This document shows positions 4,312 through 57,759 of a stretch of DNA of 57,759 nt, in pieces. How positions within the stretch are numbered: the stretch's first letter is position 1; every line of letters begins with the position of its first letter. The notes beneath the pieces were generated by a model. The model saw only the letters and a list, made by a program, of their open reading frames with translations. It was not told the origin of the DNA and searched no databases. The DNA is taken from assembly GCA_017436285.1 (NCBI GenBank), contig JAFSDL010000052.1:1-57759 (forward strand), written 5' to 3'. A program made the translations under genes and the position numbers. Origin of the DNA: Clostridia bacterium. GTDB taxonomy: Bacteria; Bacillota; Clostridia; Oscillospirales; Acutalibacteraceae.

Positions 4312-4500
4312 GTTGAAAGTGGCAAATGGAAAGTGGAAACTTTAGGGACCTGCGGTCAGCATTATATAAAAAGATTCAGGATGTTTAGTTCTCCTGAATC
4401 TTATTATTTATATGGTAATTTTACTTCTATAATGTTTGGAAGCAAAGCTTCCCCAAAACTTTCCATTTTCAACTTTCAATTTTCCACTTTTTTCTGAAAA
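4312..4500. repeat. Intergenic region with hairpin and short dispersed repeat
   Basis: This 190 bp stretch holds a hairpin (AGATTCAGGA at 4372-4381 against TCCTGAATCT at 4392-4401) that can end the trmB transcript. A 29 bp repeat unit at 4451-4479 (CCCCAAAACTTTCCATTTTC followed by AACTTTCAA) recurs identically at 50045-50073. A related sequence in the opposite sense lies at 4312-4340, so the region may itself be the remains of a terminal-inverted-repeat element. No coding sequence is apparent. Confidence 0.6.
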
Positions 4501-4532: not shown

Positions 4533-4539
4533 TTATAGT

Positions 4540-4656
4540 GTCGGCATCGCCCTATTTTCCCAGGCGGCTTCCCACCAAGTATCTTCGGCGCTGTTGAGCT
4601 TAACTACCGTGTTCGGGATGGGAACGGGTGGACCCTCAACGCCATCAACACCGACT
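4540..4656 (-). rRNA. rrf: 5S ribosomal RNA
   Basis: Read on the minus strand, the 5' arm GTCGGTGTTGATGGCG pairs with the 3' end CGATGCCGACAC. The universal segments CCCATCCCGAACACGG and GTTAAGCTC are present, as is the loop E / helix IV-V region GTGGGAAGCCGCCTGGGAA. Total length is about 117 nt. No 16S, 23S or tRNA gene is near, so this is a stand-alone 5S gene. It has its own consensus promoter (4692-4719) and terminator (4501-4532). The ends are set by pairing and could move by one or two bases. Confidence 0.93.
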
Positions 4657-11246: not shown

Positions 11247-13121
11247 ATGAAAAAAAGTATCTCATTGGTGTTATGCCTGGCTATGCTTATTTCGGTATTC
11301 TCTTGCTTAGGGCTTACTGCTTCTGCAGCAGGTAATCCAAAGGATTTGTTTACCGTTAAGGAAAGTGGCTTTAAAAACGACAAAATCACATACACCATTT
11401 ATCTTAATAAGGGTGTGAATTTGTCGGGTGCAATTATATATGCAAAGTTTGATGCAGATGTTCTTGCCATTGATAAAGCAAATTCAGGAGCATATATGGT
11501 TGACGATGGTGATGGTGGCGAACGCGAAAACATCAATGGTATGTATGAAGCTGATTTTATGGCAGGCTATGATAACCAGTTCTCTATAGCTCATGCTTAT
11601 GGTAATACTACAGATTTTAAAAACGGTACCTCCAACAAGCCTTATATTCAGTTTACTTTTAAGGCTATTGACGGAAACCGCCCTGCAACAGAGGTTAAAT
11701 TCTATTGCTATGAATTCAATAGTGCAAGCATTCCCGAAAACAACATTGCAAACGGAAGCTCTGCACTTATATATTCCTATGAGGGCACAACTCTCGGTCA
11801 GGCTGTTATCAGCTCTGTTTCATCTGAGAAATCCGGTGTAAGAATTAACTGGAAAAAGGTTACAGGTGCTGATTTCTACAGAGTTTACAGAGTAGAAGAT
11901 GGCAAAAATACACTTATTAAAAGCACCATTGATGGTGATGAATTAACATATCTTGATAAAAATGTTGAAAACAACAAGGTTTATAAGTATGTAGTAAGAG
12001 CTGTTAATGAAGCAAGCTCTGACTTTGCAGCACCCTGCAGCAGCTCTGCTTCCACAAGATACACAGTTGCTCCTTCAAAAATCACTCTTGCAAATGGTGA
12101 TGGTAAGGTTGATGTGAGCTGGTCAGCAGTTGACGGTGCAACAGGCTACAGAGTTTACAGAAGAACAATCGGTGCTGACGGTACAGCTTATGACTGGAAT
12201 TATTTAAGCAATAAAATTACCGAGCGTAAATATTCTGACAAAACCGCCAAAAGCGGAAAAACCTATGAATATGCAGTTCGTGTATATTCAGACGGTGGCA
12301 ACAGTGACTTGTATTCTCAGAAGAAAATAGTTTATCTTGATGCTCCCGAGTTTACCGCTTCAGCAACCACAAAGGGCATTAAAATTGTTTGGGATAAGGT
12401 TAGCGGTGCATCCTTCTACAGAATTTACAGAAAAACCGGTAGTGGCTCCTGGTCAAGAATTGCTTCTGTTACTGATGCTACCTCATATTTAGATAAGAGC
12501 GCATCAAGTGGCAAAAAGGTTTATTATCTCATTAAAGCTGTTAAAGGCGATTATATAAGTGCTTACGAAAAGCACTCCGTAAATTACCTTAAAACTCCCG
12601 AGGTAAGCGTTAAAAATATTACTACAGGCGTAAATGTTTCCTGGAGTAAGGTAAGCGGTGCAACAAAATATTATATTTACCGCAAAGCAGGCAGTGCATC
12701 ATCCTGGTCCTTTGTTGGCAGCACAACAAATGCATCCTACACAGATAAAACTGCTAAGAGCGGCACGCTCTATAAATACTGTGTAAGAGCAATAAGCGGT
12801 AGTGCCAAATCTGCCTTTGGCGGAACTGCTTATAAAACAATTCGCTTCCTTGCTGCTCCCGAGCTCAAGAAAATTGCAAGCACTGAATATGGTGTAACAG
12901 TTTATTGGGGCGAGGTAAAGGGCGCAACAAAATATATAGTTTACAGAAAAACAGGCTCAGGCAGCTATAAAGAGCTTGCAACCGTAACAGGAAGCGATAC
13001 AGTTAAATATCGCGATAACACTGCTAAAAAGGGCACAACCTACACTTATAAGGTTTGTGCAGGCTATAGCTCATATACCAGCAGCTTCAATTCAAGCCTT
13101 TCAATAAAGGATAAATATTAA
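11247..13121 (+). CDS. Secreted cohesin-like/FN3 repeat protein 1 (5 FN3)
   Basis: The 624-residue product has a Sec signal peptide (MKKSISLVLCLAMLISVFSC, cleavage near TASAA). A domain of about 140 residues follows whose pattern (ITYTIYLNKGVNLSGAIIYA, then FDADVLAID) fits the cohesin-like/carbohydrate-binding beta-sandwich group. Five fibronectin type III modules follow, each with a strand of the form xYRVYRKxGxG and the ending SYxDKTAKSGKxYxYxVRA. There is no LPXTG, SLH or membrane anchor; the chain ends at SLSIKDKY, an ending shared by the two paralogs downstream. It is the first gene of a three-gene cluster. I infer an extracellular adhesion or scaffold role; the ligand is unknown. Confidence 0.85.
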   Translation: MKKSISLVLCLAMLISVFSCLGLTASAAGNPKDLFTVKESGFKNDKITYTIYLNKGVNLSGAIIYAKFDADVLAIDKANSGAYMVDDGDGGERENINGMYEADFMAGYDNQFSIAHAYGNTTDFKNGTSNKPYIQFTFKAIDGNRPATEVKFYCYEFNSASIPENNIANGSSALIYSYEGTTLGQAVISSVSSEKSGVRINWKKVTGADFYRVYRVEDGKNTLIKSTIDGDELTYLDKNVENNKVYKYVVRAVNEASSDFAAPCSSSASTRYTVAPSKITLANGDGKVDVSWSAVDGATGYRVYRRTIGADGTAYDWNYLSNKITERKYSDKTAKSGKTYEYAVRVYSDGGNSDLYSQKKIVYLDAPEFTASATTKGIKIVWDKVSGASFYRIYRKTGSGSWSRIASVTDATSYLDKSASSGKKVYYLIKAVKGDYISAYEKHSVNYLKTPEVSVKNITTGVNVSWSKVSGATKYYIYRKAGSASSWSFVGSTTNASYTDKTAKSGTLYKYCVRAISGSAKSAFGGTAYKTIRFLAAPELKKIASTEYGVTVYWGEVKGATKYIVYRKTGSGSYKELATVTGSDTVKYRDNTAKKGTTYTYKVCAGYSSYTSSFNSSLSIKDKY

Positions 13122-13156
13122 TTAAAAATTCTGATTAATTCCAAGGAGGAATTAGC

Positions 13157-16100
13157 TTGAGAAGAGTTATATCATTGCTTCTTTGTTTAGTAATGTGCAT
13201 TTCTGTTTTTTCAGCAACTGCAACAACTGTTTATGCTTCAAGCTTAACAGATGATATTTTTACAGTTGAAAAAACAGATTTTGAGAACGAAAGAATAACC
13301 TATACGATTTCACTTAATGCAAATCAGAAGAATGTTTTAGGCGCTATTCTTAAATTTAAATTTGACAGTACTGTTTTAGAGGTTTCTTCCGCTAGCGGTG
13401 CAGTAGGTACGGTTAATGATTTTGGTGAATTTGCGGCTAATGTAACAGGCTATTACGAAAGTGGCGTTGAATGGGATGATGAGAACACTTATTCAATTGC
13501 ATATATGAATCCTAATGGCTTCAATATTGGTTCAACAAGCAAGAATTTTGTGAAAATTACCTTTGTTGCAATTGGTGATTCTCGCCCTGTAACGGATGTC
13601 GATTTTTATTGTGAAGAGTTCATTACTGATGATGGTGACGATACCAATGATATCAGAAAAAGTGATGGCGCACAGAAATTCTTCAGTGATTCATTCCTTA
13701 CACTCAGTCCTGCGAAAAATGTTGAAGTATCTTCTTCTGAAACAGGTCTTAAATTTGCATGGTCAGTCGCAACAGGTGCAGAATGGTATAAGGTCTATCG
13801 CAGACAGCTAAAAAAAGACGGAAGCTTTTCAGATTGGAAAATGCTTGCGCAGGTTCCCGCAGGAACAACAGAATATATTGACGAGACCATTGAAAAAGGC
13901 GTTGAATATTATTATTCTGTTGAAACAGGAAATCAATTCGGAACAATAGAACACGATGAAGATGGTCTTGCCGGCTTCTTCTTCGGAACAATTACAAAAA
14001 TTAATGCTTCCCTTACCCAAAGAGGTGCTAAGATTAGCTGGGGTGCTCTTAATGGTGCAGGAAGCTATTCTGTTTATAGAAATGCAGAGGGTCAAACTGA
14101 TGCAAATGGTGAGTTGATCTGGGAAAAGGTCGGCGAAACAGATGGTGCAACATCTTATGATGATGAACCTCTTACAAGTGGTGTGAAATATTACTACACA
14201 GTTAAAGCCCATAAGGGAGCTTACAATGCAGAGGCTTCTGTTGCTCCCGCAGAAATTACCTTCATTGCAAGTGCAAGTATTGTTGGATATAAAATAAATC
14301 AAGCTGATATTGTGATTAACTGGCCTTTTGTTGACGGTGCAGAGCGCTACAGAGTTTACAGAAAGGCTTATGGCGAAAGCGAATATGCCTACATAGGTGC
14401 AACAAGTACTAATAGCTTCACAGATACTGATGTAACAGATACTACAAAATATTATTATAAGCTTCGCACTGTTGCGGAAAATGGTGATCTCAGTGTGCTT
14501 GGCGAGGCTTATACTGTAATTAAGCTTCCTATTACAACAAAGGTTAAAGCAACCTCAGTCAATGACCATATTACTGTAAGTTGGGAAGCTGTAGAGCTTG
14601 CAGAAGAGTATATTATTTATAGAAAAACAACAACAGGAAACTGGATTATGCTTACTACAGTTCCTGCAACTAAAACAAAGCTTGTTGATAATAGTGTGGA
14701 AAGTGGCGTTACTTATGTTTACGCAGTTGCTTCCAAGACTGAGAAATTCACAACAGAAATTTCAGATGTTTCTAACCAAGTATTTTTCCTCTCCACGCCT
14801 CAGATTGTTAGTGTCGTTAATGGCTCTAAGGGTATTGAATTAACATTCGAAAAGGTTGAGGGCGCAGAAAAATATAATATCTACAGAAGAAAAGCTAATG
14901 GTGAGTTTGGTGATCCGATTGCTACTGTAACTCAGCCAACCTCTGAACAGTATGTTTACGTTGATTCTAAAGCTACTTCAGGTGTTCAGTATGTTTACGG
15001 TGTTCAGTCCGTTTGCGGAAAAACAACCACAGCTATTGTAGAATCTGACTTGGCTTGTTGCCTTAGTGAACCTGAAATGGAGCTTAAGTCTGTTTATACA
15101 GGTGTTTACATTAAATGGGATAAGGTTCCCGGGGCAGAGAAATACGAAATCTACTATTCACAAAGCAGAAAAGCAGATAGTATGGAGCTTGTTACCACTG
15201 TAACCGGCACCTCTTACACTCATAAGGCGGCAGAAAGCGGTCGAAAAAATTATTATTGGGTTAAGGCTGTTTGCGGTGATACTACAAGTATTGCGGATGA
15301 TGGAATTTATCATCTTGCTGCTCCTAAAATTGTTGAATTTAAAAACTATAAATCCTGTGTTCAGCTTAAATGGAAAGATGTTCTCGGTGCAGATGAATAT
15401 ATTGTTTATCGCAAAATCTATGGCGAAAGCAACTGGACAGAGATAAAGGTTTCATTAGAGTACAAAACTGTTAAAGAGGGGTCCGACAGTGTTACATATG
15501 TTGTTGCAAAGGACTCCGGTGTTACTGCGGGTAAGAAATATGTTTATACAGTTGTAAGCGGTGACGGTGAGGATTATAGCGGAAAATACGAAAAGGGTTG
15601 GTCTCACAGATTTCTGAAGAATCCCACAATTAAGAGTGTTGCTAATTCCTATAGTGGACCAAAGATTACATGGAGCAAGGCCTCAGGTGCAACCAAGTAT
15701 TATATTTACCGTAAAACTAAATCTACAAGCTGGAAATATATCGCTTCAACTACCGGCACATCATATGTAGATAAAACTGCTAAGAGCGGTACAAAGTATT
15801 ATTATGCAGTAAAATCATTGAATGGTGATTATGCGGCATACCATAACACATCTCACTTTAACGATATCTGTAAGACCGTAAACTATCTCGCAGCTCCTGC
15901 TGTTACGGTTGCAAACACATCAAGCTCAATTAAAGTATCTTGGGGCAAGGTTACTGGTGCTGAGTCATACTATGTTTATCGTAAGGCAGGCTCTGCAACA
16001 AAGTGGACTAAGGTAAGGACAACTGCTGCAACCTCGTTCACAGATAGTGATGTAAAGAATGGCACATCATACAGATATATGGTTAAGGCTGTTGACGGAA

Positions 16101-16417
16101 GCATTGTTTCAAGCTATGATTCTGATGGTGAATATATCAGACGCATTTCTGCTCCTAAGGCATCGAGCGTTACTAGTTCAAAGAGCGGAATCACATTCAA
16201 ATGGAGCAAGGTTTCAGGCGTGTCCGGTTATTATGTGTATCGTAAAACAGGTTCCGGAAGCTATTCAAAAATTGCTACTGTTAAAGGTAGTACAAATATA
16301 AGCTATCTTGATAAGTCCGCTCAAAAGGGTAAAACCTATACTTATATGGTAAAAGCATATTATGGCTCATCAACCAGTGCTTATAACGGAACTCTTAAAA
16401 TTACAGATAAATATTGA
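13157..16417 (+). CDS. Secreted cohesin-like/FN3 repeat protein 2 (10 FN3)
   Basis: The 1086-residue paralog starts at a TTG, chosen because AAGGAGG lies 8 bases upstream and the signal peptide (MRRVISLLLCLVMCISVFSA) begins there. After the signal peptide comes the same cohesin-like domain (ITYTISLNANQKNVLGAILK, then FDSTVLEV). About ten FN3 modules follow, countable by their central strands (for example RYRVYRKAYG, EYIIYRKTTTG, KYNIYRRKANG, GYYVYRKTGSG). It ends NGTLKITDKY. The gap to the gene before is 35 bp with no terminator, so co-transcription is likely. Like its neighbours it lacks any visible wall anchor. Confidence 0.85.
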   Translation: MRRVISLLLCLVMCISVFSATATTVYASSLTDDIFTVEKTDFENERITYTISLNANQKNVLGAILKFKFDSTVLEVSSASGAVGTVNDFGEFAANVTGYYESGVEWDDENTYSIAYMNPNGFNIGSTSKNFVKITFVAIGDSRPVTDVDFYCEEFITDDGDDTNDIRKSDGAQKFFSDSFLTLSPAKNVEVSSSETGLKFAWSVATGAEWYKVYRRQLKKDGSFSDWKMLAQVPAGTTEYIDETIEKGVEYYYSVETGNQFGTIEHDEDGLAGFFFGTITKINASLTQRGAKISWGALNGAGSYSVYRNAEGQTDANGELIWEKVGETDGATSYDDEPLTSGVKYYYTVKAHKGAYNAEASVAPAEITFIASASIVGYKINQADIVINWPFVDGAERYRVYRKAYGESEYAYIGATSTNSFTDTDVTDTTKYYYKLRTVAENGDLSVLGEAYTVIKLPITTKVKATSVNDHITVSWEAVELAEEYIIYRKTTTGNWIMLTTVPATKTKLVDNSVESGVTYVYAVASKTEKFTTEISDVSNQVFFLSTPQIVSVVNGSKGIELTFEKVEGAEKYNIYRRKANGEFGDPIATVTQPTSEQYVYVDSKATSGVQYVYGVQSVCGKTTTAIVESDLACCLSEPEMELKSVYTGVYIKWDKVPGAEKYEIYYSQSRKADSMELVTTVTGTSYTHKAAESGRKNYYWVKAVCGDTTSIADDGIYHLAAPKIVEFKNYKSCVQLKWKDVLGADEYIVYRKIYGESNWTEIKVSLEYKTVKEGSDSVTYVVAKDSGVTAGKKYVYTVVSGDGEDYSGKYEKGWSHRFLKNPTIKSVANSYSGPKITWSKASGATKYYIYRKTKSTSWKYIASTTGTSYVDKTAKSGTKYYYAVKSLNGDYAAYHNTSHFNDICKTVNYLAAPAVTVANTSSSIKVSWGKVTGAESYYVYRKAGSATKWTKVRTTAATSFTDSDVKNGTSYRYMVKAVDGSIVSSYDSDGEYIRRISAPKASSVTSSKSGITFKWSKVSGVSGYYVYRKTGSGSYSKIATVKGSTNISYLDKSAQKGKTYTYMVKAYYGSSTSAYNGTLKITDKY

Positions 16418-16426
16418 TAAAATAGG

Positions 16427-16452
16427 CAGTTCCCTCGGAATCGGGGGAACTG
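16427..16452 (+). promoter_or_regulatory. Hairpin just ahead of the third FN3 gene
   Basis: CAGTTCCC (16427-16434) pairs with GGGAACTG (16445-16452). The stem ends 6 bases before the AAGGAGG ribosome binding site of the next gene and has no U-run. It looks more like an mRNA-processing or translation-modulating hairpin than a terminator. Confidence 0.55.
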
Positions 16453-16474
16453 TTATGTGCAAGGAGGTGCGCTT

Positions 16475-19400
16475 TTGAAAAGAGCGTTATCTTTAATATT
16501 GTGCCTGATAATGTGCTTTTCCGTATTTAGCAGTACTGTGCTGCAGGCTGGAGCAGTTGGTATGGCTGACAAGCTTTTTTCAGTTAAAAGCAGTGTTGTT
16601 AAAAACGGAAAAATTACTTACACAGTAAGCCTCAACGGTGGGGTTGAAGGCTTTGGTGGTACAGTTATATTAATTGAATATGACAATACTGTGCTGGCAC
16701 CGGCAGAGGAAGGCTTCAAGCCTGCATATAAAAGCTCAGGAGTTCAGCAGTTCAATGGTGTTTATGTTAACGGAATTACCGCGACAGACCCAAATGTGTA
16801 TTCCGTTGCTTATACAAACACAGTTCCTGAATCAGTGGAGAGTAATACGGAGTTTTTCAGTATAACATTTGATGTTATAAATGAAGAAAGACCCACAACG
16901 AAAGTAACATTTATATGTAAAGAATTTTTCTCAACAACCGATTCCGAGCAATCAATTACTGTTGCAGATGGTTTGAAGACAATTGAAAGAATAGAAAATG
17001 TTGTTACAATTGAATCTCCCGAAAGCATTACTGCCAAGCTTGCCACAGGTAAAATTGTTGTTAAATGGAAGGCATCACAGGGTGCTGTCAGCTACCGTCT
17101 TCAAAGAAAAACTCTTGATGGTGCATGGGGCAGTGAATATACTACTGTTTCTGCAGATAAGCTTTACTATAACGATGTTTTAGAGCTTGAAAGCGGAGAA
17201 ACATACGTGTATCGGATTCAGGCAGTTAATGAAGATGGTGTTACAAGCGTCCATAATTCCACAACAGCATCCTGCAGATATATTGCAAAACCCACAGATG
17301 TTAAGGCAGTTAACGGTGTTGGTGGCATTGATATAACCTGGTCTGAAGTCAAAGGTGCAGATAGCTATAAAATAATGCGACGTGAATCAGGTGAAAAGGA
17401 GTGGACTGTTCTTACAGAACGTTCATCAACTCTGGCAACCTCTTATAAGGATACAACTGTTGAAAGCGGAAAAAACTACGAGTATGATGTTAACTCAACT
17501 CTTGGAGATTTTACAACAGAAACTCTCGAGGAGGGAAAAACAGTTGCTTATCTGGCTTCACCTGAGGAGGTTACAGGCTCTAATATCAGTGGCGGAATTG
17601 AACTGAAATGGAAAGCGGTAGAAAACGCATCCTATTATGTAATTTACAGAAAAGCAATAAGCACTGAAACTAAATTCACAAAATACGCTACCGTGTTTTC
17701 AAACAGTTTTATTGACCCTGATGGTGATGTTGAGGTCAGAAAGGCTTATACATACAGGATTAAAGCGGTTAATGATTATGGCGAAAGCGCTCTTACCAAA
17801 ACAGGCTGTACCATTACACGAGTTCCTGCAACAACTGTAACAAAGGTTGAGCCTTTGGCTGATAAGGTTGTTGTTTATTTTAAAAATATTGCCGATGTTG
17901 ATGGTTACTACATTTACAGAAAAACCAAATCAACCGATTGGAGAAAGGCAGGCATAGCCTCTGCAGATGCCCAATATTTTGAAGATACCAAGGCTACAAG
18001 TGGCATAAGCTACTACTATTGTGCGGTTCCCTTTATAGGCAACTCAGAAAGTGAAAAAATTTCTACAACTACAAGCTGTTATTACCTTAAGGCACCTCAG
18101 AATGTGAAGGCTGTAAACACAAAGGATGCTTTAAAGGTTACCTGGGATGCAGTTGGCGGTGCAGAGGAATATTATGTTTACCGCAAAATTGGTAAAACAG
18201 GCGAATTTGCGCTTGTAAAAACTGTTAAAGCAGAATCAACTCTTAAATATATTGATGAGGATGTTAAGGTTAACAGTATCTGCTACTATAAGGTTATGGC
18301 AGCAAGCTCAAGGGGAAAAAGCCTTGAAAGTGAAATTTCACCCGCAACAATGCGTATTCTCTGCGTAAAGGGTCTGGAATCAAAAATAGTTTCCAAGGGT
18401 GTTTATATTGAATGGAGCAGCCATAAATCTGCCGATACTTATTTTGTTTACAGAAAAGAAAGTGGAGAAGAATGGAAGAAAATCGGTGAAACAGACGAGA
18501 GAAAGTTTACCGATTCCACCGTTAAAAGCGGAAAAACATATTCTTACGGAATTGTTCCCGTTGTTGATTCTTATAAAGGTGATATAGATGAGGATGAAAT
18601 TATTACCATTAAATATATTTCCTCACCTGCCATAACCAAAATAACCAACTATAAGACAACCGTTAAGGTTGAGTGGAAAAAGGTTGAGGGTGCAAAAAAA
18701 TATCGTTTGCAAAGAGTTGCTCTTGATGCCGATTGGGAGCCCAAAGGCTCTTATAAAACAATAGCAACTGTTTCTGCCTCTGAAACAAGCTTTAAGGATA
18801 CCGACCTTGTGGAAGGTCGTAGATACAGATACAGAGTTTATGCAGTTGCAGGCGATACTGTAAGTGTTGCATCAACCTCCGTTAAGAACATTTTCCTTGC
18901 TACACCCAAAATTACTTCTCTTGCTAATTCTTATGGTGGCATAAGAATTTATTGGAGCGATGTTAAAAATGCCCAAGATTATAGCATTATGCGTAAGGAA
19001 AGTGGAGGAGAATGGAAAACAATAAAAACTGTTAAAGCCTCAAGAACTGCATATACAGATAAAACAGCTGAAAATGGTGTTAAATATTATTATGCAGTGA
19101 GAGCTCTTGCAAGTGATTGCAGAAGCTATTATGCATCAAAAAGCTTTACTTACTACGCTTCACCCGAGGTTACATTATCAAATAAAACCTCTGCAATAAC
19201 TGTTACATGGAAGAAAATTTCAGGAACAAAAAGTTATTATGTTTATCGTAAAGCCCCCGGTGAAAACTCGTGGAAGAGAATTGCTATTGTAACAAAGAAT
19301 ATTTATACCGATAAGGATGTTAAAGCCGGTAAAACCTATAAATATACAGTAAAGGCTTACAATGGCAAAATCTTTTCAGGCTATAACACAAGCGGATGGT

Positions 19401-19948
19401 CTATAAAACGTCTTACAGCACCAAAGCTTAAGGCGATATCAAACAAGGCAGCAGGTGTTTATGTTGATTGGAGTAAGGTTACAGGTGCATCCGGTTATAT
19501 TGTTTACCGAAAAACCTCTTCTACAAACTGGACTGCGGTAGGCAAAACCAAAAAGGGAACCTCATTTGTAGATGAAACTGCAGTAGCGGGTAAGGTTTAT
19601 ACTTATACTGTTGTTGCTACATCGGGAAGCTATCGCTCAACTTATATTGCAGACGGGCTTAAAATAAAACGCCTTAAAAGACCTAAGCTCGAAAGTGTTA
19701 AGAGCTACAGAACCGGTATAAAGTTCAAATGGGAAACTGTTACGGGTGCATCAGGCTACTATGTTTATCGTAAAACCGGCTCTGGTGATTGGGAACAGAT
19801 TGCCAAGGTAACAGATGCTTCAACTACCTCTTATTTCGATAAAACTGCTAAAAAAGGCAAAACCTATTACTATTCGGTTCGTGCTTACAGCGGTTCTTAT
19901 AAGAGTGCATATAACACAACAGGACTTAAAATCAAAGATAAATATTAA
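16475..19948 (+). CDS. Secreted cohesin-like/FN3 repeat protein 3 (11 FN3)
   Basis: This is the largest paralog, 1157 residues from the TTG at 16475. That start follows AAGGAGGTGCGC and gives a signal peptide beginning MKRALSLILCLIMCFSVFSS; an upstream GTG at 16457 would put the ribosome binding site inside the gene. The cohesin-like domain (KITYTVSLNGGVEGFGGTVI) covers about residues 30-170. About eleven FN3 modules follow (SYRLQRKTLDG, SYKIMRRESG, EYYVYRKIGK, TYFVYRKESG, GYYVYRKTGSG and others). It ends GLKIKDKY. The C-terminal module is very similar across the three genes, which suggests duplication with repeat expansion. Its terminator appears to be split by the element at 19963-20187. 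Confidence 0.85.
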   Translation: MKRALSLILCLIMCFSVFSSTVLQAGAVGMADKLFSVKSSVVKNGKITYTVSLNGGVEGFGGTVILIEYDNTVLAPAEEGFKPAYKSSGVQQFNGVYVNGITATDPNVYSVAYTNTVPESVESNTEFFSITFDVINEERPTTKVTFICKEFFSTTDSEQSITVADGLKTIERIENVVTIESPESITAKLATGKIVVKWKASQGAVSYRLQRKTLDGAWGSEYTTVSADKLYYNDVLELESGETYVYRIQAVNEDGVTSVHNSTTASCRYIAKPTDVKAVNGVGGIDITWSEVKGADSYKIMRRESGEKEWTVLTERSSTLATSYKDTTVESGKNYEYDVNSTLGDFTTETLEEGKTVAYLASPEEVTGSNISGGIELKWKAVENASYYVIYRKAISTETKFTKYATVFSNSFIDPDGDVEVRKAYTYRIKAVNDYGESALTKTGCTITRVPATTVTKVEPLADKVVVYFKNIADVDGYYIYRKTKSTDWRKAGIASADAQYFEDTKATSGISYYYCAVPFIGNSESEKISTTTSCYYLKAPQNVKAVNTKDALKVTWDAVGGAEEYYVYRKIGKTGEFALVKTVKAESTLKYIDEDVKVNSICYYKVMAASSRGKSLESEISPATMRILCVKGLESKIVSKGVYIEWSSHKSADTYFVYRKESGEEWKKIGETDERKFTDSTVKSGKTYSYGIVPVVDSYKGDIDEDEIITIKYISSPAITKITNYKTTVKVEWKKVEGAKKYRLQRVALDADWEPKGSYKTIATVSASETSFKDTDLVEGRRYRYRVYAVAGDTVSVASTSVKNIFLATPKITSLANSYGGIRIYWSDVKNAQDYSIMRKESGGEWKTIKTVKASRTAYTDKTAENGVKYYYAVRALASDCRSYYASKSFTYYASPEVTLSNKTSAITVTWKKISGTKSYYVYRKAPGENSWKRIAIVTKNIYTDKDVKAGKTYKYTVKAYNGKIFSGYNTSGWSIKRLTAPKLKAISNKAAGVYVDWSKVTGASGYIVYRKTSSTNWTAVGKTKKGTSFVDETAVAGKVYTYTVVATSGSYRSTYIADGLKIKRLKRPKLESVKSYRTGIKFKWETVTGASGYYVYRKTGSGDWEQIAKVTDASTTSYFDKTAKKGKTYYYSVRAYSGSYKSAYNTTGLKIKDKY

Positions 19949-39193: not shown

Positions 39194-39222
39194 TTGATTT
39201 TCAAAATATCAAATGTTAATAT
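39194..39222 (+). promoter_or_regulatory. Promoter of small-peptide locus, copy 1
   Basis: TTGATT (39194-39199) and TAATAT (39217-39222) are spaced by exactly 17 bp. Copy 2 has the matching arrangement (TTGCTT, 17, TAATAT). Confidence 0.7.
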
Positions 39223-39263
39223 ATTAGCGGAGTTTTTCTCCCTTGGAGCTATTTGAAACGGAT

Positions 39264-39353
39264 AGGTGGTTAGTCTCTTTAACAGAGAGACTGAACTCTC
39301 TGATTACATAGAAATCCCGAAAGGGAAATTTGCAGTCAGCAGAGGTGATAGCT
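39264..39353 (+). promoter_or_regulatory. Structured mRNA leader of small-peptide locus, copy 1
   Basis: About 50 nt of the leader (39269-39316) are identical to copy 2 (from 49284). Two hairpins compete for the same bases: AGTCTCT (39272-39278) with AGAGACT (39286-39292), or CAGAGAG (39283-39289) with CTCTCTG (39296-39302). A third small stem, ATCCC-GAAA-GGGA, sits before the AGAGGTGAT ribosome binding site; in copy 2 its loop differs but the CC/GG stem remains. Confidence 0.65.
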
Positions 39354-39419
39354 ATGAACGAAACAATCGTTGTATTAGCCATCATTTTCTTTACGGTTCT
39401 TATTATCAGAACTAAATAA
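39354..39419 (+). CDS. 21-residue hydrophobic peptide, candidate type I toxin (copy 1)
   Basis: The ORF begins MNETIVVLAIIFF and ends in IIRTK. It is almost wholly a single membrane-spanning stretch with a polar N-terminus and a basic C-terminus. It starts at ATG behind AGAGGTGATAGCT. The copy at 49369 encodes the same peptide apart from two conservative changes; two of the four altered codons are silent, which suggests selection on the protein. The ORF lies between a promoter and a bidirectional terminator, with an oppositely directed promoter beyond it. This is how Fst/par-like and TxpA-like type I toxin genes are built, but this peptide is shorter than those and I do not recognise a named family. 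Toxicity is inference. Confidence 0.75.
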   Translation: MNETIVVLAIIFFTVLIIRTK

Positions 39420-39512
39420 GAAAACAACCGCCTAACTTCCCAATAAGGCGATTGTTTTCAATAATCAAATTATTACGCGGAGGCTAACCGTCTATCGGAT
39501 AGCTCCTTGTTT
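39415..39512 (-). ncRNA. Candidate antisense antitoxin RNA (copy 1)
   Basis: The transcript would start near 39512, about 7 bases after the TATAAT at 39519-39524, and stop in the U-rich tail of the shared hairpin at 39420-39459. Its 5' part forms a long hairpin (39479-39506: GGAGCTA/TAGCCTCC plus CCG/CGG). Its 3' part is fully complementary to the end of the peptide mRNA. The CTATCCG near its 5' end can also pair with CGGATAG (39259-39265) in the mRNA leader. Confidence 0.6.
39420..39459. terminator. Shared bidirectional terminator, copy 1
   Basis: GAAAACAACCGCCT (39420-39433) faces AGGCGATTGTTTTC (39446-39459). The single mismatch is a C-A pair in the plus transcript but a G-U pair in the minus transcript, so the stem is complete for the antisense RNA. 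Confidence 0.8.
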
Positions 39513-39518
39513 ATTTAT

Positions 39519-39547
39519 ATTATATTCTATTGTTTTGCAAAAATCAA
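39519..39547 (-). promoter_or_regulatory. Antisense promoter, copy 1
   Basis: On the minus strand, TTGATT (39542-39547) and a perfect TATAAT (39519-39524) are spaced by exactly 17 bp. Confidence 0.75.
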
Positions 39548-49207: not shown

Positions 49208-49236
49208 TTGCTTTAATATTTGTTTTGTGTTAATAT
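49208..49236 (+). promoter_or_regulatory. Promoter of small-peptide locus, copy 2
   Basis: TTGCTT (49208-49213) and TAATAT (49231-49236) are spaced by exactly 17 bp. Confidence 0.7.
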
Positions 49237-49278
49237 ATTTTTTGAGCTCAGGCTCAGCAAGGAGTTGTCCTTTGCGGT

Positions 49279-49368
49279 AGGCGGTTAGTCTCTTTAACAG
49301 AGAGACTGAACTCTCTGATTACATAGAAATCCATTTTTGGAAATTTGTTATCAGAAGAGGTGATTGCT
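49279..49368 (+). promoter_or_regulatory. Structured mRNA leader of small-peptide locus, copy 2
   Basis: It carries the same block as copy 1 (GGTTAGTCTCTTTAACAGAG and onwards, about 50 identical bases) with the same two competing hairpins. AAGAGGTGATTGCT is the ribosome binding site. Upstream of the block the two copies differ strongly, although each keeps a small hairpin near its 5' end (AGGAGTTGTCCT here). Confidence 0.65.
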
Positions 49369-49434
49369 ATGAACGAAACAATCGTTGTATTAGCCATCAT
49401 TTTCTTTATAGTTCTTCTTATTAGAACCAAATAA
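49369..49434 (+). CDS. 21-residue hydrophobic peptide, candidate type I toxin (copy 2)
   Basis: The ORF begins MNETIVVLAIIFF and ends in LLIRTK. Against copy 1, Thr has become Ile and Ile has become Leu, and two further codons differ silently. A single membrane-spanning helix with a basic end is predicted. The locus order is promoter, conserved leader, ORF, shared terminator, antisense hairpin and antisense promoter, identical to copy 1. The genes on either side of the two copies are unrelated, which argues that the roughly 310-370 bp cassette is the unit of duplication. Function as a membrane toxin is inferred from architecture only. Confidence 0.75.
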   Translation: MNETIVVLAIIFFIVLLIRTK

Positions 49435-49527
49435 GAAAACAACCGCCTGACTTCGAAATAAGGCGGTTGTTTTCTTAATCAATCACTTAACTCGGAGGCT
49501 AACCGTCTATCGGATAGCTCCTTGTTC
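49430..49527 (-). ncRNA. Candidate antisense antitoxin RNA (copy 2)
   Basis: It would start near 49527 behind a perfect consensus promoter and end after the shared hairpin at 49435-49474. The 5' hairpin (49494-49521) is identical in sequence to that of copy 1. The unpaired loop AUAGA and the flanking CTATCCG are the likely first contact sites. Confidence 0.62.
49435..49474. terminator. Shared bidirectional terminator, copy 2
   Basis: GAAAACAACCGCCT (49435-49448) and AGGCGGTTGTTTTC (49461-49474) form a perfect 14 bp stem, with an A-rich flank on the left and T-rich flank on the right. Confidence 0.85.
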
Positions 49528-49533
49528 ATTTAT

Positions 49534-49562
49534 ATTATAGGTTAATTTGTTTTATTTGTCAA
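49534..49562 (-). promoter_or_regulatory. Antisense promoter, copy 2 (perfect consensus)
   Basis: On the minus strand, TTGACA (49557-49562) and TATAAT (49534-49539) are spaced by exactly 17 bp, the ideal sigma-A arrangement. Confidence 0.85.
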
Positions 49563-49820: not shown

Positions 49821-50150
49821 GTTTTAAAATCGTTTATTGTCCTCTCAACAACGAAGGGTAATCTTTACGTGGCTACCCACCACCATTCCGTTTAAACAAA
49901 AAGAATAATGAGCATATTCACACGGAATATACTCATCCGCAAAATATATTTCATTCAAGAATGGTCCCCCTCCCTATGCCTTCGGCACAGGGATGATAGG
50001 CTTCGCAACATTTTTTACAAAAACTTCTACGGCGCATTTTCGCGCCCCAAAACTTTCCATTTTCAACTTTCAACTTTCAACCACAACGGAACGGTCAAGA
50101 CCGTTCCCTACATTGCTAATTGCTATTTGCTGGCAACTGGCGACTGGTGA
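49821..50150. repeat. Non-coding, repeat-rich gap
   Basis: I see no credible gene in these 330 bases. They hold a hairpin ATATTC/GAATAT near 49914-49930, the 29 bp repeat unit at 50045-50073 that also occurs at 4451-4479, and the hairpin GGAACGGTC/GACCGTTCC at 50088-50107, related to 9212-9232. With the XRE remnant this looks like a graveyard of small elements. Confidence 0.6.
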
Positions 50151-57520: not shown

Positions 57521-57759
57521 GGGGATGTAAAAAAAGCGCAGACCGCAAAAAACCATATATACCAAGGGGTTCCTACAGTAAAAAAGCTGTAAGAACCCCA
57601 TAAACATATTCAAAACTCAAAAACAAGAAAAATTAATGTTTTATGCTACGAACAAACCTCGCCACTCGACGTACCTTTGTACGCCTTCGGGCAAATCCCG
57701 ATAAGCCTGAAGCCTTATCGGGACTCGGTTTGTCCGTTCTGCATCTTTTTTTCCTATCC
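57521..57759 (-). repeat. About 240 bp interspersed element A, copy 2 (cut by window end)
   Basis: It is the inverted copy of 1042-1283, differing at a handful of positions, for example within the poly-T stretch of the loop at 57580-57590. The inner hairpin GGGGTTCCTACAG/CTGTAAGAACCCC (about 57569-57600) and the GTACCTTTGTACG palindrome are kept. The compensated stem GATAAGCCTGAAGCCTTATC is perfect here but carries one change in copy 1. It directly follows dpaB. Confidence 0.8.

Follow-up and report, generated by a model that had tools for sequence, protein, structure and literature searches.

At positions 39194-39547 of the window, the whole stretch of 57,759 nucleotides that was analysed, lies a compact cassette: a plus-strand promoter, a structured leader, a Shine-Dalgarno (SD) sequence, a short open reading frame (ORF) for a hydrophobic peptide, a hairpin terminator and, facing them, a minus-strand promoter (Table 1). 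We refer to this cassette as copy 1, to its putative toxin mRNA as RNA I and to the predicted antisense RNA as RNA II. The parts listed in the first-pass annotation are all present in this interval by sequence reading and promoter scan; the exact 17-bp spacing given there for the convergent promoter was borne out (TTGATT-17-TATAAT, minus strand, 39547-39519), and an antisense RNA of about 95 nt agrees with the span, from about 39512 to 39417, that comparative evidence predicts.

The RNA I promoter of copy 1 is weak (8/12 consensus positions, counted by eye) and is missing from the promoter scan only because the threshold there was 9. The scan returned 7 promoter-like sites in the stretch versus 5.8 in shuffled sequences; thus, lone promoter matches prove nothing by themselves. 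The terminator stem (39420-39459) has A/T flanks on both strands and was not flagged by a simple terminator scan. Copy 1 folds better than its shuffled versions on both strands (z -5.3 and -4.95). An upstream anti-SD is predicted (39295-39307 with 39332-39345, extending into the SD), as is an alternative pairing of the SD within the ORF (39342-39349 with 39381-39389). The core of the RNA I head, GGTGGTTA, is complementary to the 5' arm of the terminator, AACCGCC, and resembles the head of RNA II.

Table 1. Coordinates of the parts of the two cassettes in the window
Feature	Positions	Strand	Basis
Copy 1, RNA I (putative toxin mRNA) promoter, TTGATT (39194-39199)-17-TAATAT (39217-39222)	39194..39222	+	sequence; same spacing in copy 2
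Copy 1, RNA I 5' terminal small hairpin, GGAG-uuuuu-CUCC	39229..39241	+	sequence, alignments
Copy 1, RNA I 5' head, core GGTGGTTA at 39265-39272	39245..39276	+	sequence, fold, head comparisons
Copy 1, leader hairpins	39273..39345	+	predicted fold
Copy 1, SD sequence, AGAGGTG	39341..39347	+	sequence
Copy 1, ORF of 21-aa membrane peptide MNETIVVLAIIFFTVLIIRTK, ATG 39354 to TAA 39419	39354..39419	+	sequence, orthologue in G018
Copy 1, bidirectional hairpin terminator common to both RNAs	39420..39459	both	sequence, fold, covariation
Copy 1, predicted RNA II (antisense, about 95 nt)	39417..39512	-	model R1 match 39419-39516
Copy 1, RNA II 5' head hairpin	39479..39506	-	fold, covariation
Copy 1, RNA II promoter, TTGATT-17-TATAAT, 10/12	39519..39547	-	promoter scan
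Copy 2, RNA I promoter, TTGCTT-17-TAATAT	49208..49236	+	by eye
Copy 2, ORF MNETIVVLAIIFFIVLLIRTK	49369..49434	+	sequence
Copy 2, bidirectional terminator	49435..49477	both	repeat comparison, fold
Copy 2, predicted RNA II	49432..49527	-	model R1 match 49434-49531
Copy 2, RNA II promoter, TTGACA-17-TATAAT, 12/12	49534..49562	-	by eye

A second cassette with the same set of parts, copy 2, occupies 49208-49562. The DNA of the two copies is 89% identical over 197 nt and 77% identical over a further 88 nt, and copy 2 also folds better than shuffles (z -7.95 and -6.65 on the two strands). Four cassettes are found in the genome as a whole: two in the window, one on contig C46 (peptide MEYLTFVVIILIVATGYIISIKK) and one on contig C62 (peptide MITYNELFLLGTLIVSIIALVVDITKKK). 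The small hairpin at the 5' end of RNA I varies among them, being GAGC-ucag-GCUC in copy 2 and GGAA-cuuuu-GUUCC in the C46 copy. The covariance model R1, which describes RNA II (the minus-strand RNA) and was built from 16 sequences with both copies among them, scores copy 1 at 96.1 bits and copy 2 at 90.3 bits; a fifth R1 match in this genome (49388-49475, plus strand) lies inside copy 2 and is the other strand of its terminator. Copy 2 comes just after a threonyl-tRNA synthetase-like gene, upstream of which there is a T-box leader (RF00230, 46914-47139).

Distribution of the cassette and conservation of its parts

With the whole-cassette DNA as a query (E 0.01), 10 of the 22 genomes of the genus gave a match, our own genome counted; one of the ten, G006, had no cassette on inspection. 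Among 200 genomes of the family, R1 found matches in 67 (E 0.01); at E 0.001 it did so in 75 of 295 genomes from the order and in 27 of 398 from the phylum. These genome samples overlap, and within the family four genomes contain 10-18 matches each. As judged from these sequence searches, the cassette recurs far beyond chance. The first-pass annotation had held that its reading would fall if other genomes lacked homologues with the ORF; the covariance-model search of related Clostridia that it proposed found such homologues. A pattern scan of named genomes gave 55 sites in 54 stretches, 53 of which have titles naming Clostridia, Clostridiales, Clostridium, Eubacterium, Eubacteriaceae, Ruminococcus, Ruminococcaceae or Oscillospiraceae, and one only "bacterium"; an animal (goat, sheep, reindeer, roe deer or water deer) is named in 17 of the 54 titles. 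Tandem cassettes are present, mostly 330-410 bp apart, with one pair at 185 bp. They are seen at G104:C12:497222-498009 and at L043, L059, L066 and L141, and the two neighbours at L066 differ in terminators and head variants. A THF riboswitch lies at positions 82-178 of L069, about 1.3 kb from a cassette.

A blastn search of phage and plasmid records, with copy 1 (296 nt) as its only query, gave no match, and we rejected a phage or plasmid origin for copy 1 on this ground. The cassette reached no Rfam gathering score in the scan of the window, in copy 1 searched at a permissive threshold or in 16 family loci. Six weak permissive matches of copy 1 were far under gathering (e.g., psRNA14 with 19.8 bits versus 60) and were rejected as its identity.

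To be counted, an ORF had to start with ATG, have 15-45 codons, be hydrophobic, carry a ribosome-binding site (RBS) and end at the terminator. Such an ORF is present in 50 of the 65 loci found by the model, with the stop at one exact position in 49, and in those 49 the terminator arm, UAACCGCC or one of its variants (UAGCCGCC, UGACCGCC, UAAUCGCC), supplies the stop codon with its first three bases. Random stretches of the same loci contained any such ORF in 38 of 1300 cases and one at the exact position in 0 of 1300; the opposite strand gave 1 of 65. At the named sites, 41 of 55 have an ORF ending in TAACCGCC. A filter-passing ORF at the terminator is absent from 15 of the 65 loci and from 14 of the 55 named sites, some of them at contig ends. 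Copies 1 and 2 have a few bases between the stop and the terminator arm that follows it.

The annotation had also named divergence at non-synonymous sites as fast as at silent sites as a reason to abandon its reading. Between copy 1 and its G018 orthologue there are three synonymous changes and no non-synonymous one, which does not refute the reading; the peptides are identical, while the adjacent proteins show 79% (HAD) and 74% (YbaK) identity. Within the 21-aa group, pN/pS reaches up to 0.79 against more distant members, and the variable columns of six ORFs fall at codon positions 1, 2 and 3 in numbers of 7, 7 and 10, a weak signal. A pN/pS of 0.19 over 124 pairs is biased downward because the pairs were preselected at peptide identity of at least 70%, and we relied on the within-group counts. 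One copy, L121, appears decayed: from midway on, its frame no longer follows the MEMYFIFALILLYSIGFILSIKK peptide seen in its relatives. The sequence evidence supports a real small ORF that is conserved as a reading frame with an RBS, one of the features looked for in a type I toxin-antitoxin (TA) locus.

In an alignment of 84 RNA II rows, 96.5% of cells form standard pairs, and double-sided changes occur in 11 of 15 pairs. Cells with double changes number 66, compared with 7.9 in shuffles and 2-23 when the partner is slid by 1-3 columns, in an alignment that was fitted to the model and is therefore biased toward the structure. Against mononucleotide shuffles, the 5' hairpin of RNA II has a mean z of -2.3 (83 sequences, 74 of them below -1). 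The RNA II promoter, counted in 57 of the 65 loci, scores 12/12 in 35 and at least 10/12 in 48, and shuffled upstream sequences reach 10 in 1.8% of cases; for RNA I the promoters are weaker, averaging 9.8 of 12 (n = 36) despite the wider stretch searched. The predicted terminator duplex has -100.7 kcal/mol for cognate and -40.9 kcal/mol for non-cognate partners, as expected for a cis-antisense RNA. The structure and promoter comparisons support a putative antisense RNA gene with its own promoter that overlaps the candidate toxin mRNA, a further type I feature.

Leader folding and the 5' heads of the two RNAs

The SD is predicted to be closed, with a mean unpaired value of 0.17 over 108 cassettes (92 below 0.3); for 31 ordinary genes that we picked from the window, the mean is 0.39 (12 below 0.3). 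In copies 1 and 2, the predicted partners are the leader arm and ORF codons 10-12. Leader and terminator share complementarity of at least 6 pairs in 82 of 95 cases versus 19% of shuffled ones, a figure biased upward by the choice of leader cores by pattern; no core was found in 13 of the 108 cassettes. The 5'-3' interaction is predicted to be favoured in six of 16 cassettes (0.94-0.98; L003, L017, L018, L019, L032 and L033) and partial in two (L013 and L039). For the other eight, copies 1 and 2 among them (0.19 and 0.02), a weak interaction is predicted. When the 3' end of RNA I is removed, the predicted opening of the SD barely rises (from 0.05 to 0.19 at the most), so the 5'-3' interaction is not needed for SD closure in the model. 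This modelling speaks against it as the main lock on the SD.

The heads were compared in 35 cassettes that remained after removing those at least 85% alike, with permutations that ignore relatedness. The RNA I head is more similar to the RNA II head of its own cassette than to those of other cassettes (31.4 versus 20.5; 0 of 2000 permutations), and so is the variable 5' arm (18.5 versus 9.9). The RNA I arm is nearer to its own RNA II than, on average, to other RNA I arms in 34 of the 35, nearer to it than to the RNA IIs of the five nearest neighbours in 33, and at least as near to it as to every other RNA I arm in 15. This match by identity suggests that the ends of RNA I and RNA II co-evolve. 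The head repeats are inverted: within a cassette they score 32.1 for identity and 14.8 for complementarity, against 12.6 when shuffled. Because the heads are near-palindromic hairpins, equal heads can pair with each other. The cognate preference in head duplex energy is modest (-20.65 versus -19.26 kcal/mol; 0 of 2000), and the gain on cofolding is not clear (-3.41 versus -2.99; 151 of 2000). Specific pairing of the RNA I leader with its cognate RNA II was considered for 16 cassettes of the genus and rejected, with -25.0 for cognate and -24.2 for non-cognate partners.

Peptides and known type I systems

All 88 distinct peptides contain a hydrophobic 15-residue stretch (Kyte-Doolittle at least 1.90; 3.25 in copy 1), and 87 have a net positive tail. 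For alignment and family searches we used 86 of 93 distinct peptides, omitting seven near-duplicates or odd ones. The peptides on the scaffold diverge widely, with a mean column identity of 26%. At E values of at most 0.01, Pfam Hol_Tox (PF16935) matched 14 of the 86 (best 8e-8), NCBIfam ComI matched 5 (best 1.1e-6), the type I toxin PepG1 matched 3 (best 6.2e-4) and a PHROG labelled holin matched 5 (best 0.0015); two relatives on the scaffold exceed the curated Hol_Tox cut-off of 23.3 bits, with 32.0 and 25.0 bits. The copy 1 peptide has no match to Hol_Tox or to any other family in Pfam or NCBIfam, no peptide of its genome is above the Hol_Tox cut-off, and seven short peptides (21-25 aa) scanned singly have no Pfam match. 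The earlier statement that the peptide matches no family thus holds for the 21-aa peptide itself and fails for the scaffold. Because the longer scaffold peptides match Hol_Tox, ComI and PepG1, we place the cassette beside the TxpA/BsrE/Hol_Tox toxins and not beside Fst; the shared scaffold ties the short peptides to the TxpA/BsrE/SprG toxin type by linkage, not by their own sequence. Single matches among the 86 peptides to Proton_antipo_N and CBP_BcsF (Pfam), to BcsF, SecE and SLATT_6 (NCBIfam), to two unnamed PHROGs and to a PADLOC 2TM effector were taken as chance.

Passages of PMC6562991 describe TxpA/RatA, BsrE/SR5, BsrG/SR4 and SprG1 (PepG1)/SprF1 as combining a small hydrophobic peptide, antisense pairing at the 3' end and a sequestered RBS. 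The cassette resembles TxpA/BsrE-type loci in the 3' overlap of its putative toxin mRNA and antitoxin and in an RBS that is predicted to be sequestered, and it resembles the TxpA group and Hol_Tox in that longer peptides on the scaffold match Hol_Tox and PepG1. It differs from them in its 21-aa peptide without a match and, as far as the TxpA group is concerned, in one terminator shared by both RNAs, in a stop codon that lies within the terminator arm in most relatives, in its matched 5' heads and in having no Rfam family found for it. The Fst/par locus (RNA I/RNA II of pAD1), as outlined in parts of PMC7472228, has convergent promoters, a bidirectional terminator, an SD in a leader hairpin, a 5' hairpin and a second repeat pair. 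The cassette shares, in sequence and structure, the convergent promoters and the bidirectional terminator, and likewise has an SD in a leader hairpin, a 5' hairpin and a second repeat pair beyond the terminator. However, the Fst/par repeats DRa and DRb are direct and yield complementary RNAs, whereas those of the cassette are inverted and yield the same sequence in both RNAs. The PXXXG motif is absent, neither 21-aa peptide having a proline, and no Fst match was listed for the 21-aa peptide or among the families matched by the 86 peptides. Membership in Fst was rejected for want of PXXXG and because the repeats are inverted.

With 21 residues, the peptide is shorter than Fst, as had been noted from the sequence, yet it is not the shortest type I toxin: IbsC of IbsC/SibC, a very short hydrophobic toxin, has 19 residues and appears in a section of PMC8309996 among the toxins without a positive C-terminal charge. 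For aapA/IsoA and hok/Sok, part of PMC6733600 describes a 5'-3' long-distance interaction, with an anti-SD downstream of the SD in aapA3. The cassette peptide is like IbsC in being very short and hydrophobic, and the cassette is like aapA and hok in its 5'-3' interaction, which for the cassette is no more than a prediction, and a weak one for copies 1 and 2. The RNA layout of IbsC/SibC, and both the peptides and the antisense layout of aapA/IsoA and hok/Sok, are other than those of the cassette. With its par-like shared terminator and a peptide that is presumably toxic, the cassette is a short-peptide branch of a Hol_Tox/TxpA-like class of type I TA loci.

Type I TA loci are a known kind; apparently new, within the databases and literature searched, are the scaffold itself, its design with the stop inside the terminator, the match between the heads and the payload of 21 aa. 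None of these four came up among the matches listed in these searches, the coverage of which is incomplete, and an earlier description is possible. Gut Clostridia commonly carry the class, with as many as 18 model matches in one genome, and no Rfam entry for it was found. Its members form a natural series of very different membrane peptides borne by a single regulatory scaffold, and they pose the puzzle of why both RNAs of each cassette have the same 5' hairpin. In genomes with many cassettes, the question of how each antitoxin RNA finds its own mRNA can now be asked.

Proposed mechanism and alternatives

Comparison establishes, at the level of sequence, the parts and their conservation, the ORF, the structure and promoter of RNA II and the matching of the heads. 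We read the locus, with a probability of about 0.72, as a chromosomal type I TA-like cassette; the annotation had proposed such a layout with a shared terminator, and spread, covariation, ORF and promoter support it. Transcription, repression, toxicity and head function are presumed as follows. RNA I (about 230 nt) would encode a 21-residue single-pass membrane peptide, and the leader anti-SD and the first ORF codons would fold away the SD and the start codon. The stronger convergent promoter would make RNA II (about 95 nt), which would meet RNA I first and mainly via the shared terminator, a mode for which passages of PMC7472228 and PMC6562991 offer precedent in par and bsrG/SR4. Pairing there may lead to RNA I decay or keep the RBS closed. 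Within one mRNA, the leader core GGYGGUUA and the terminator arm AACCGCC may pair, a 5'-3' long-distance interaction comparable to those of aapA and hok, and the matched near-palindromic heads may add a second, cassette-specific contact. When RNA II falls, the peptide would be made and would act on the cell's own membrane.

The same RNA logic could instead control a regulatory small membrane protein, for example one that binds a membrane complex. The wide divergence of the peptides and the matches to ComI, which is named for competence inhibition, would suit such a role, as would the lack of a blastn match of copy 1 in phage or plasmid records and its position at one chromosomal place, from ybaK to a HAD gene, in three species. 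Hol_Tox and the type I toxin PepG1 are also matched on this scaffold, however, and an SD that is predicted to be closed in two ways is in keeping with a harmful product; we consider a non-toxic peptide unlikely, if well worth keeping in mind. The same chromosomal place bears on another explanation, a mobile, MITE-like repeat with inverted repeats that resemble RNA heads by chance. The ybaK gene adjoins the HAD gene at 7 of 17 HAD loci of the genus, and the cassette lies between them in G000, G017 and G018 and is missing in G007, G011, G019 and G020. This patchy presence is in line with mobility, as are the multiple copies found in a genome, the usual spacing of 330-410 bp between tandem copies and the imperfect inverted repeats. 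On the other hand, no target-site duplication was seen by eye at the empty sites, and promoter, terminator and stop-at-terminator ORF are all conserved; this conserved ORF already disfavours a mobile repeat, which we regard as very improbable.

Within the type I reading, the matched heads are in our view best taken as a second contact that serves as a cassette-specific address. The main rival to this, which concerns the heads only, is that they are quasi-palindromic inverted repeats homogenised by template switching, its chief form, or by gene conversion, or else shaped by one common binding factor; we give it a serious chance, somewhat short of even. The match being one of identity, with little gain in cognate pairing energy, speaks for this rival. 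Gene conversion is less well served, as it works poorly on short arms that lie about 200 bp from each other, and the different head types carried by cassettes within G000 do not fit a single sequence-specific factor. If the address reading holds, the cassettes may form a large, Clostridia-wide, RNA-defined type I TA class whose palindromic 5' heads, nearly identical between toxin mRNA and antitoxin RNA, evolve together and serve as a private address at which the two meet, on a fixed scaffold with the stop in a two-way terminator and interchangeable membrane peptides of 20-36 residues; we put this forward tentatively, as rather less likely than its converse.

Elsewhere in the window, no tRNA was found by ARAGORN, and a 5S rRNA lies at 4539-4655 on the minus strand. 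Positions 1044-1184 and 57619-57759 form a 141-nt inverted repeat that is 99% complementary and has one arm at the contig end, which may be an assembly fold-back or a repeat. Three long ORFs at 11247-19948 contain up to 14 copies of a 53-nt repeat, and a pyrimidine-rich 37-nt repeat occurs at 4451-4487 and 50045-50081 with 95% identity.
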